DNA from: Blautia sp. Marseille-P3087 | Lineage (GTDB): Bacteria; Bacillota; Clostridia; Lachnospirales; Lachnospiraceae | Direction of reading: 5' to 3' | NCBI RefSeq assembly: GCF_900120195.1 | Contig: NZ_LT635539.1 | Coordinates: 2,575,441-2,639,440, forward strand | Length of the DNA: 64,000 nt | Shown here: one piece after another, positions 46,309 through 51,292 of the stretch | Layout of the letters: every line of letters starts with the position of its first letter | How positions within the stretch are numbered: the stretch's first letter is position 1 | Program-made: the position numbers and the translations under genes | Notes under the pieces: model-generated | Seen by the model: only the letters and a program-made list of their open reading frames with translations | Databases searched by the model: none | Told to the model about the DNA's origin: nothing

Positions 46309-47493
46309 TTATTTTTCGTACTGAGCCATATAGTTGCTGACGCAACGTTTGATTCTGTCAGCAGGATTCAGAAGATGGCTGACAGACATATCATGATTCA
46401 GCGTATCAATGATCAGTGCGATATATTTGCTCATATCGCATGTGATGTAATACGGTTTGGAGAGAAGCTCCGGTGTCTGATAAACAAGGTTTGTAGTAAG
46501 AAGTTTATCAAAGATACCGTTCTGGTAAGCTTCGTCAAATTTTTCCATTCCTTCGGTGAAGAGACCGAAAGTGGTACAGATAAAGATCTTGCCGGCGCCG
46601 CGTTTCTTAAGAAGAGATGCGATCTCAAGGATGCTCTTACCGGAAGAAATCATATCATCGATCAGGATGACATCTTTGCCTTCAAGCTTTGGTCCGAGGA
46701 ACTCGTAAGCTGCGATCGGATGACGGCCTTTGACCATTTTGCTGTAGTCAAGACGGCGGTAGTACATACCCATGTCCACACCAAGGACGTTGGCAAGATA
46801 GATGGCTCTGCGCATGCTTCCCTCGTCCGGGCTGATGATCATGAAATGGTCATTGTCAATATGAAGACCTTCCACATTGTGGAGAAGGGCTTTTATAAAC
46901 TGATATGACGGCTGGATCGTCTCGAATCCGTGAAGAGGAGTTGCGTTCTGTACACGGGCATCGTGTGCATCAAATGTAATGATATTCTCTACACCCATGC
47001 CGGTGAGTTCCTGAAGTGCGGAAGCACAGTCGAGAGATTCGCGGCCGACACGTTTGCTCTGGCGGCTTTCATAGAGATACGGCATGATGACATTGATTCT
47101 GCGGGCTTTGCCGCCGATTGCAGCAATGGCACGCTTCAGATCCTGGAAGTGATCATCCGGGGACATCAGGTTTGTGAAACCGCTGATTCTGTAGGAAAGA
47201 CTGTGGTTGCATACATCCACCATAAGGTAAATATCGTCACCACGGACGGATTCACCGATCTCACCTTTACCTTCACCGGAACCAAAACGTGGTGTTTTGA
47301 CATCAACGATGTAAGAATCACGTCTGTATCCCTCAAATGCAAAAGAATCTAATTCAGGGCTGATGCGTTCTTTTCTCCATTGTACAAGCCACTCGTCAAC
47401 TTTCTCGCCAAGTGGGCGGCAACTCTGGAGGGGAATCAGTCCAAGTCTGCCTACCGGAAGTGTTGTCAGTTCTTTGCTGTTAAGCTGTGCCAT
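46309..47493 (-). CDS. prs: Ribose-phosphate pyrophosphokinase (long clostridial form)
   Basis: A 394-residue PRPP synthetase, longer than the common form of about 315. It keeps the PRPP-binding loop DVILIDDMISSGKS and FDAHDARVQN. The ribose-5-phosphate region reads ISPDEGSMRRA instead of the common SPDxGGxxRA. A long N-terminus (about 1-90) is characteristic of clostridial versions. PRPP feeds purine, pyrimidine, NAD, His and Trp synthesis. It starts 3 nt after the helicase-loader gene and is probably co-transcribed. Confidence 0.9.
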   Translation of the reverse strand: MAQLNSKELTTLPVGRLGLIPLQSCRPLGEKVDEWLVQWRKERISPELDSFAFEGYRRDSYIVDVKTPRFGSGEGKGEIGESVRGDDIYLMVDVCNHSLSYRISGFTNLMSPDDHFQDLKRAIAAIGGKARRINVIMPYLYESRQSKRVGRESLDCASALQELTGMGVENIITFDAHDARVQNATPLHGFETIQPSYQFIKALLHNVEGLHIDNDHFMIISPDEGSMRRAIYLANVLGVDMGMYYRRLDYSKMVKGRHPIAAYEFLGPKLEGKDVILIDDMISSGKSILEIASLLKKRGAGKIFICTTFGLFTEGMEKFDEAYQNGIFDKLLTTNLVYQTPELLSKPYYITCDMSKYIALIIDTLNHDMSVSHLLNPADRIKRCVSNYMAQYEK

Positions 47494-48498: not shown

Positions 48499-49563
48499 TT
48501 ACTGGTTCAGCAGGTGCTTTTCGTATTCGTCGAAATTATATTCACGCTGCTGGAAATTGTTGAATCGGTTGTTGGATGCCGGTGCCGGACGGGAGTCTCG
48601 GGCAGCCTTTTTTTCCTGACGTTTTTTCCTGTGTGCGCTGTCCAGAGAACGGATGTCGTCCATCGTGCGGACCTCTTTCTGCTTCCAGCCTTCAAGAATC
48701 TTGTCGGTGTACTGGAAACTTGCCTGTCCGGTCTGGAGGACGGTTCGGTTACATGCCTCCTGAATGATCTCCATGGAAAAACCATAGGTCTTGAGCCAGG
48801 TGTCCATCAGTGTGATTTCTGTCTCGACCGGATTACGGTTGGTGATGCCCAGTGCCTTCAGAATGGAAAAATAATCCTTATTATATCGGGAACCGGACTG
48901 TTTTGCCTCTTCAACGGATGTGATGCCTTCCTGTGCCCAGGCAAGAGCAACCTTTTCGATGTAGCGGATGCTCTTGTGATTGTGTCCGACGCAGTACTCG
49001 ATCAGATAGTCGATCAGGTCTACGGACATACCAAGACCGTCATAGAAAAACAAAAGCTTCTGAACCTCTGTAGGAGAGAGGGTCTTACCGAGATACTGTT
49101 CGGCAACGTAAAGAAGCTGGATGATGTCCTCGTTTTGTTTGAGTTCACTTACACGCTCCGGAGTAAGCGCTTCCGGGCGGGCAGAAGACGGCTTTGCAGA
49201 TGCTTTTGTCGGAACCGGTTCGGCAGTGCCGCTGATCTCTGCCGCAGCGCTGTCAGAAGGCGTAGCGGAAGGGGAGAGCAGGGCAATCCCGCATAATTTA
49301 TTATTGTCTGTAAAATCGAGAGTCAGAAGCTCCTGCTTTGCCCAGTATTTCAGCGCGCGGAGAATGTCGCGCTCTGTACAGAGAAGCCGGTCAGCCATCT
49401 GCTCCAGACTGAAAGAAACCGGAGCACTGGAAAGGGCGCGTAAAAGATAGATATAAACTTTTACAAATTCTCCATTGGCCTCCGGCATATAATTGTCGAT
49501 AAATGTATTAGATAATATTGTTACCTCCGGATGGGAGGTGTTATGTAATGTGATCATTGACAT
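48499..49563 (-). CDS. DnaD-domain replication initiation/restart protein
   Basis: A 354-residue protein with an N-terminal winged-helix (about 10-100; VYIYLLRALSSAPVSFSLEQMADRLLCTERDILRALKYW), a low-complexity Ala/Ser/Pro linker, and two copies of a DnaD C-terminal-like (DnaB_2) domain (about 140-220 and 230-310, with YNKDYFSILKALGI and EAC motifs). It would act with the helicase loader. Start ATG 49563 chosen; ATG 49557 is nearly equal. The ribosome binding site is weak. DnaA boxes lie 150-350 bases upstream. Confidence 0.85.
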   Translation of the reverse strand: MSMITLHNTSHPEVTILSNTFIDNYMPEANGEFVKVYIYLLRALSSAPVSFSLEQMADRLLCTERDILRALKYWAKQELLTLDFTDNNKLCGIALLSPSATPSDSAAAEISGTAEPVPTKASAKPSSARPEALTPERVSELKQNEDIIQLLYVAEQYLGKTLSPTEVQKLLFFYDGLGMSVDLIDYLIEYCVGHNHKSIRYIEKVALAWAQEGITSVEEAKQSGSRYNKDYFSILKALGITNRNPVETEITLMDTWLKTYGFSMEIIQEACNRTVLQTGQASFQYTDKILEGWKQKEVRTMDDIRSLDSAHRKKRQEKKAARDSRPAPASNNRFNNFQQREYNFDEYEKHLLNQ

Positions 49564-49716
49564 GATAGATCGCTCGCTTTCTAAACGAAAATATCTGCGT
49601 GAACAGACATTACGGGTACCGCGTAAACAGCGGTATATCTGGAACACTAGGATTATAGCACAAGATTTTTCAAATGAGAATAGGGTATTTTTCTACAGGA
49701 GATTTCCACAAAGAAA

Positions 49717-49911
49717 TGTGGATAATGTGGATAATGTGGAAATCGAATTTTGCTGTAAATTATTTGTAACCTCATAAAATGACGAAGTTTGTTGTATTTC
49801 CGCGAAAATTGCGATAAATCGACAGGATATTATGTAAAGTAAAATGGCAGAAAAAATCCACATGTCATACACGGTGAAAAATGTGTATAAACATGTGGAT
49901 AATGTGGATAA
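49717..49911 (-). promoter_or_regulatory. Cluster of five perfect DnaA boxes
   Basis: TTATCCACA occurs on the minus strand at 49717-49725, 49726-49734, 49894-49902 and 49903-49911, and TTATACACA at 49882-49890. All match the DnaA-box consensus TTATNCACA, point the same way and sit in one gene-free 349-bp gap between murC and the dnaD-like gene. The first two and last two are head-to-tail in 9-bp steps, and the intervening 147 bp is A/T rich. Likely a DnaA-binding regulatory or titration site. Confidence 0.75.
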
Positions 49912-49912
49912 C

Positions 49913-51292
49913 TTATTTGCCAAGGAGCTGTTCGCCAATGTTTACAACGTCTCCGGCCCCCATAGTTATCAACAGGTCGCCCTGTGTACAATTTTCGAGT
50001 AAAAAGTTTTCAATCTCATCGAAAGTCGGAAAATATTCGCACGGAGTGCCGAGTTCCCTGATATGTTTCTGAAGATCTGCAGAGGAAATTCCGAGGTTAT
50101 CGGTTTCGCGCGCTGCATAAATATCTGCAAGGACTACGTGATCTGCAAGTGTCAGAGCCTTTGCAAATTCCGGAAGCAGAGCTTTTGTACGTGTATAAGT
50201 GTGAGGCTGGAAGACACACCAGATCTTTTTGTGTGGATAATTATGTGCTGCATGAAGTGTAGCCTCGATCTCTGTCGGATGGTGTGCGTAGTCATCAATG
50301 ATGGTGACTTCACCGACTTTGCCCTTGTACTGGAAACGACGGTCTGTACCACCGAAATCTTTCAGTCCGGCGAAGATCACTTCATTATCAAGACCAAGAA
50401 GTCTGCCTGCTGCGATGGAAGCGAGGGCATTGGATACGTTGTGGATGCCCGGTACTTTCAGGGAACAGGTACCGATGTCTTCGCCATTATGAAGAACATG
50501 GAAAGTCGGATGTCCGAATTCGTCATAAGTGATGTCAGAAGCGGTATACTCAGCATCGTGTTCAAGACCGTAGGTGATCACTTTACATGGAAGGTTTTCG
50601 GCAACCATTTCGTATTTCGGTGTATCTGCATTGATGATGAGCGCACCGTCAGCAGGAAGAAGCTCTGCAAATTTACGGAAAGAATGACGGATGTCATCAA
50701 TATCCTTAAAGAAATCCAGATGGTCGGCATCCATATTTAAAATGATTCCGAGTGTCGGGAAAAAGCTGAGGAAGCTGTTGGTGTATTCACATGCTTCTGT
50801 CAGGAAGGTCTCGGACTGTCCGACACGGATATTGCCGCCAATTGCAGGAAGGATACCGCCGACACTGATCGTCGGGTCGCATTCGCCCTTCAGAAGAATG
50901 TGTGACAGCATAGAAGTGGTTGTGGTCTTTCCATGTGTACCGGCAACTGCGATAGAAGTATCGTAGTTACGCATGATCTGTCCGAGAAGCTGGGCTCTTG
51001 TCAGCATCGGGAGACCTTTTTCCTTCGCGCAGGCGAATTCCGGGTTGTCCGGATGGATGGCAGCTGTATAAACAACAACCTGAACAGAATCGGAAATATT
51101 GGAAGCGCGCTGACCATAGTAGATCTTTGCACCTTTGCTTTCCAGAAGACTGGTCAGGGGGCTTTTCTTGGAGTCAGAACCGGAAATTGTGAAACCCTCT
51201 TCCAGAAGTATTTCAGCAAGTCCGCTCATACTGATACCGCCAATACCGATAAAATGGATAGAGAGCGGTTTATGGAAGTCTATCTGATACAT
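49913..51292 (-). CDS. murC: UDP-N-acetylmuramate--L-alanine ligase
   Basis: A 459-residue Mur ligase that adds L-Ala to UDP-MurNAc in the cytosol. N-terminal HFIGIGGISMSGLAEIL binds UDP; the ATP loop is GTHGKTTTTSML; DDYAHHPTEIEA and FQPHTYTRTK are conserved. The start is supported by AAGGAG. Its stop codon lies 1 base from the last DnaA box. Confidence 0.97.
   Translation of the reverse strand: MYQIDFHKPLSIHFIGIGGISMSGLAEILLEEGFTISGSDSKKSPLTSLLESKGAKIYYGQRASNISDSVQVVVYTAAIHPDNPEFACAKEKGLPMLTRAQLLGQIMRNYDTSIAVAGTHGKTTTTSMLSHILLKGECDPTISVGGILPAIGGNIRVGQSETFLTEACEYTNSFLSFFPTLGIILNMDADHLDFFKDIDDIRHSFRKFAELLPADGALIINADTPKYEMVAENLPCKVITYGLEHDAEYTASDITYDEFGHPTFHVLHNGEDIGTCSLKVPGIHNVSNALASIAAGRLLGLDNEVIFAGLKDFGGTDRRFQYKGKVGEVTIIDDYAHHPTEIEATLHAAHNYPHKKIWCVFQPHTYTRTKALLPEFAKALTLADHVVLADIYAARETDNLGISSADLQKHIRELGTPCEYFPTFDEIENFLLENCTQGDLLITMGAGDVVNIGEQLLGK

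Follow-up and report, generated by a model that had tools for sequence, protein, structure and literature searches.

A conserved DnaA-box cluster is a probable DnaA-binding control region of the helicase-loader operon in Lachnospiraceae

We describe here a cluster of DnaA boxes in Blautia sp. Marseille-P3087 that is probably a conserved control region of the helicase-loader operon with putative DnaA binding. Within the window, that is, the whole 64-kb stretch of DNA analyzed (C2:2575441-2639440 of the 3.30-Mb genome), five perfect copies of TTATNCACA lie within 195 bp, on the minus strand throughout, as two abutting pairs plus one (49717-49725, 49726-49734, 49882-49890, 49894-49902, and 49903-49911). 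They occupy the gap between murC and a DnaB/DnaD-like–dnaI–prs operon. A sequence-only reading of the same DNA had described precisely this arrangement and had proposed that it might serve DnaA control of the primosome genes, DnaA titration, or a secondary origin. Overall, that reading is borne out in part: conservation, strand, promoter anatomy, and helical phasing all favor the first proposal, and the simplest account suggested by these features is that DnaA controls its own downstream machinery.

All genes flanking the boxes are on the minus strand. The upstream gene, murC (49913 to 51292), encodes Pfam Mur ligase domains, and a single base separates its stop codon from box 1; a sixth perfect minus-strand box lies inside murC (50232-50240), and several relatives also have boxes in their murC ends. 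The operon itself comprises genes for a DnaB/DnaD-like primosome protein (48499 to 49563, ATG start), a DnaI/DnaC-like AAA+ ATPase of family NF005304 (47497 to 48486), and a PRPP-synthetase-type protein of family NF005299 (prs; 46309 to 47493). The assignment of these genes as dnaD-like, dnaI-like, and prs therefore holds, with the refinement that the "dnaD-like" protein, which is 82% identical to its counterpart in Blautia sp. MSJ-19, matches DnaB_2 in two stretches. Since no second PF07261 (DnaB_2) protein was found in the genome at an E of ≤0.001, the operon appears to hold the only DnaB/DnaD-type protein of this genome, along with a DnaI-like partner. The DnaA protein of this genome keeps the stretch RDHTTV, which we take to be the box-recognition stretch. 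According to PMC5295017, B. subtilis DnaB is laid out with two DDBH2 domains, and the two-domain (DnaB_2) layout of the protein described here is alike.

The box density at this locus is far above background outside oriC. The window contains 13 boxes, compared with a mean of 2.7 in shuffled sequences, none of 100 of which reached 13, and 22 boxes were counted in 400 kb sampled elsewhere in the genome. Genome wide, 190 perfect copies of TTATNCACA were found and placed (89 forward and 101 reverse), and only three groups of at least three boxes within 300 bp exist: one of four boxes at oriC, upstream of dnaA (2177220-2177420), one of five at a second, noncoding element (2496261-2496353), and the group of five at the helicase-loader operon (2625157-2625343). 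By a Poisson estimate, the probability that any of the 190 has at least four others within 195 bp is about 1e-7. The sequence-only reading would have lost its force had such density been common in the genome, which it is not.

The DnaB/DnaD-like gene was matched in 119 of 120 family genomes, each from another genus, and loci were compared for the best-scoring 70 of these 119 genera. The 500-bp upstream regions of the 70 genera (35.0 kb) contain 193 boxes, 178 of them on the strand of the gene, versus 39 in the other 345.3 kb, an approximately 49-fold difference relative to comparison DNA that is largely coding. At least one box is present upstream in 62 of the 70 genera, at least two in 48, and at least three in 37; 14 genera have a single box, and 8 have no perfect box within 500 bp. 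Two abutting boxes make an 18-mer for which 74 of the 120 genomes together have 131 places, with none for the reversed control, and 69 of these places, in 48 genomes, are upstream of the DnaB/DnaD-like gene, every one on the strand of the gene. Among 23 named relatives, the 420 bp upstream contain at least five boxes in 16 and at least three in 20, the poorest being L203 and L214 with one each and L217 with none, and in 18 other families of the order (L187, at a contig end, was omitted), the same gap has at least two boxes in 9 and none in 9. Consensus boxes upstream of the promoter are thus retained in relatives, whereas a lack of conservation would have counted against the sequence-only reading, and on this comparative evidence the cluster is a conserved module of the family. 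The module is laid out as abutting boxes at the murC stop codon, an interval of about 80 to 180 bp, a proximal array, and a sigma-A promoter with an extended -10 element.

The proximal array consists of box 4 (49726 to 49734) and box 5 (49717 to 49725), both reading TTATCCACA on the minus strand, with a degenerate box carrying two mismatches (ATTTCCACA, 49735 to 49743, same strand) in register with them (L005 array). Box 5, the last, starts 68 bp before the -10 hexamer of a predicted minus-strand promoter, which combines the extended -10 element TGCTATAAT (49652 to 49660) with the predicted -35 element TTCTCA (49675 to 49680) across a 17-bp spacer. When 58 genera were aligned by their best TGNTATAAT-like match, so that the -10 but not the -35 element was picked by score, the consensus TTYTCW-17-TRTGCTATAAT emerged. 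The distance from the last proximal box to the -10 element is mostly 58, 68, 77 to 79, or 88 bp. For the 53 of these 58 genera with a distance of <160 bp (L016, L045, L051, L063, and L069 fall out; L047, whose computed value comes from a stray box, was left in), the best period is 9.8 to 9.9 bp, with an R of 0.67 that none of 2,000 jittered sets reached, and a P value of 0.0025 is obtained from the distinct values alone.

A gene-independent search of 397 family genomes for the pattern of a box, a gap of 31 to 91, and TRTGNTATAMT matched 155 genomes, with the reversed control matching 5. Among the 118 of the 155 that were listed, the R is 0.72 at 10.0 to 10.1 bp, where the shortest match per genome was kept, second or off-locus matches were left out by eye (G076:C449, G083:C30, G156:C19, G271:C1:38073, G272:C151, and both of G224), and G148 and G282, which may be chance matches, were retained. 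The 89 listed genomes outside the 70-genus set, 14 of which share a genus with that set, gave an R of 0.70 at 9.9 bp, and none of 1,000 sets was as high. A period of 9, the pitch of the array, also gives an R of 0.56 to 0.58 in the pattern-matched genomes. Among 26 disjoint sister pairs, there were 19 differences of at least 4, of which 12 were within 2 of a multiple of ten and seven were exactly 10, and because the P value here is 0.18, shared ancestry may inflate the other phasing tests. In the tests across genera and across pattern-matched genomes, the position of the last box is constrained relative to the promoter with a period of about 10 bp. Spacing in steps of one turn usually marks a protein that has to meet polymerase on one face of the helix. 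The phasing therefore suggests that DnaA acts on RNA polymerase from a single side of the helix, which makes operon control the most likely role of the boxes.

The distal array is formed by boxes 1 (49903 to 49911) and 2 (49894 to 49902), which abut and both read TTATCCACA, and by box 3 (TTATACACA, 49882 to 49890), which follows box 2 at a 12-bp pitch; all three are on the minus strand. The place of the distal pair within the murC terminator had escaped the sequence-only reading. A terminator-like hairpin with a T-run follows murC (49851 to 49900, minus strand; model match E of 4.6e-11), in which box 2 is the 5' arm, box 3 lies within the hairpin, and the closing arm TGTGGAT is followed by the T-run; the segment 49851-49911 folds at -21 kcal/mol with a z of -6.65. 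The hairpin loci, 31 of the 70, were chosen by the TGTGGAT arm, which fixes the seven box pairs, so that the extension pairs alone are informative. In 26 of the 31 loci (L012, L062, L063, L067, and L069 were omitted, three of which pair poorly), the five stem pairs past the box covary, with 46 both-side-change cells versus 12.2 after shuffling and 0 of 500 shuffles as high, and the signal is lost when the partner arm is slid. Across all 31 loci, 31, 27, and 28 pair at the first, second, and third extension positions, respectively, versus 15.6, 12.8, and 15.5 after shuffling. A stable hairpin with a T-run, predicted from the sequence, is therefore kept by covariation. A model of this hairpin matched in 87 of the 120 genomes at an E of ≤0.01, with a same-strand match before the DnaB/DnaD-like gene in 74 genomes and 26 matches elsewhere. 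At an E of ≤1e-5, it matched before this gene in 58 genera and at two places elsewhere, one in G044 close to the end of a contig, the gene itself lying at the end of a different contig, and the other at the second element in G106. Rfam gave two weak matches, far below gathering scores, and none above.

Since the model matches mostly before this gene and the stem covaries, box 2 is both a DnaA consensus site and part of the predicted terminator of murC. It is very improbable that the distal boxes are merely terminator sequence that resembles DnaA boxes by chance, even though a covarying hairpin has box 2 for its 5' arm: box 1 lies outside that hairpin yet is equally conserved in the aligned loci, which were chosen for having a box, the composite model is nearly confined to this gene at the stricter threshold, and the proximal array would be unaccounted for.

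In light of this, we propose that DnaA would bind the abutting boxes of the proximal array, whose downstream edge is in a fixed helical phase with the sigma-A promoter, and would from there most likely contact RNA polymerase, and that it would also bind the distal array built into the terminator of murC. The amount or the ATP state of DnaA would then set the transcription of the genes for the DnaB/DnaD-like protein, the DnaI-like loader, and PRPP synthetase, and loader supply would thereby follow the initiator. Activation is weakly favored as the sign of this control, since the array lies upstream of a poor -35 element and seldom overlaps the core promoter. The same explanation with the opposite sign, in which abundant DnaA would reduce loader supply through negative feedback, either by obstructing polymerase or by looping the distal and proximal arrays, is possible but rather unlikely. 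DnaA appears to repress several targets in B. subtilis and E. coli, its own gene included, as described in PMC4447404 and PMC11317965, and two arrays with nonrandom spacing could loop; boxes at the core promoter are rare, with a total of two perfect boxes within -50 to +20 of the -10 element across 58 genera. The distal-to-proximal spacing gave a period near 11 bp in 31 loci, which is confounded by the 9-bp pitch of the array, and loop phasing is not claimed. A more elaborate form of activation, in which DnaA at the distal boxes helps to stop read-through from murC while DnaA at the proximal array turns on the operon promoter, possibly with the arrays looped, is unlikely in our view. If true, the initiator would gate the per-cycle supply of the only DnaB/DnaD-type protein and the DnaI-like loader, and loader supply would be uncoupled from the transcription of a cell wall gene.

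Dense boxes outside oriC are also a feature of the B. subtilis DnaA-box clusters and of E. coli datA, the latter with an IHF site; the boxes described here differ in that their operon, strand, and promoter phase are fixed. Besides this locus, which is 447 kb from dnaA, the genome has only one box cluster outside oriC, and it is reported that B. subtilis initiates early when six non-oriC clusters are removed together (PMC13220808 and PMC5295017). That the boxes mainly hold free DnaA and delay initiation, with the adjoining operon incidental, is nevertheless improbable. A site that only absorbed DnaA could work beside any gene, on either strand, and at any helical phase, whereas 69 of 69 upstream 18-mers are on the strand of the gene and the spacing from array to promoter is phased, and the second element, which adjoins different genes, fits a sink better. 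Titration, as the sequence-only reading had offered it, is thus possible but would not by itself account for boxes that keep one place, one strand, and one phase relative to a promoter; the operon locus may titrate DnaA in addition to exerting control. The remaining proposal, a secondary replication origin, could draw on the box cluster and on the A/T-rich DNA between the distal and proximal arrays, but it is extremely improbable. GC skew changes from -0.115 at 2.155 Mb to +0.164 at 2.183 Mb, with dnaA between the two, and every sample from there up to 3.26 Mb is positive, the operon locus and the second element included, the other sign change being between 0.2 and 0.5 Mb. The sign does not change at the operon locus, which also does not adjoin dnaA-dnaN, and neither a main nor a strong secondary origin is supported there, skew being blind to a rarely used origin.

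Control of the loader operon by DnaA would be a new variation on DnaA-controlled promoters, which include sda (activated) and ywlC and ywcI-sacT (repressed) in B. subtilis and nrdA and dnaA in E. coli (PMC4447404 and PMC11317965). As in those cases, boxes are located upstream of a cell cycle or DNA synthesis gene; the differences are the target, here a helicase-loader operon, and the abutting boxes in helical phase with the promoter. We regard it as new among these promoters because dnaB and dnaI are absent from the rows listed in Table 1 of PMC4447404, which gives the strongest B. subtilis DnaA regions, and because we found no report in the open-licence literature of DnaA control of the dnaB/dnaD-dnaI operon in Lachnospiraceae; the main text of PMC4447404 contains neither dnaI nor nrdR. 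Same-strand pairs of TTATCCACA at promoters are also known as the E. coli double DnaA box, for which 2 to 3 bp between the boxes is preferred (PMC11317965). Here, in contrast, 53 of 73 same-strand neighbors within 30 bp have 0 bp between them (9-bp pitch), 9 have 3 bp (12-bp pitch), and 2 have an 11-bp pitch, which makes the abutting boxes a contrast case for the E. coli rule. In lying where a transcription unit ends, the distal boxes recall the DnaA roadblock at E. coli asnC, cited in PMC11317965, with the difference that here the box itself is an arm of a putative intrinsic-terminator hairpin. Such a box doubling as a terminator arm adds to the interest of the locus, as does a control region with readable geometry at one operon of a large gut family, where the phasing of about 10 bp predicts that an insertion of half a turn would break control and that one of a full turn would not. 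To our knowledge, loader supply in relation to initiator activity has hardly been studied outside E. coli and B. subtilis.

The second noncoding element (G000:C2:2496261-2496464; L004:3762-3965) lies outside the window and consists of a box, about 45 bp, a TTATnCAC-like box, an abutting pair, about 50 bp, and GTTTTGT...ATAAA. The 62 other 18-mers, in 50 genomes, belong mostly to this element among those read; four are around dnaA in G088, and at least two (L094 and L113) are unlike it. Its neighbors vary (S30AE/HPF, SecA, MecA, NlpC/P60, or trxB and V-ATPase D). A model of the element matched in 112 of the 120 genomes at an E of ≤0.01, some of these matches being at the operon locus, and off the operon locus in about 91 genomes at an E of ≤1e-8, as counted from the listing, typically as a single strong match in each genome. 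In genomes with the element and dnaA on one contig, the distance between them is 39 to 319 kb for six, two of whose contigs were assumed to be circular, and 985 kb for G036. The element is perhaps a titration or DnaA reactivation site, a role that it fits better than the operon locus does.

Several other motifs accompany the boxes. The Spo0A-like TTGTCGAA near the 18-mers of the operon locus (1 in 16.2 kb versus 3 in 174 kb) is not convincing. CCYTTGWWTTT is located between the proximal array and the promoter in some relatives, e.g., L020, L024, and L043; 6 of the 70 upstream regions have it, and it occurs nowhere else in these loci. The conserved motif TTTACATAA (49830 to 49838, minus strand) precedes the gene in 21 of 70 genera and occurs 6 times elsewhere; as a -35 element it was rejected, as judged by eye no -10 element stands at 17 bp. 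It recurs in all three DnaA-box clusters of the genome (49830-49838, L003:3383 at oriC on the other strand, and L004:3886). At the second element, the 14.6 kb of sequence lying no more than about 200 bp from the 18-mers contain TTGTCGAA 15 times, for example, at L004:3700-3760, versus 3 times in 115 kb elsewhere, and the element is a possible meeting point of sporulation and initiation control.
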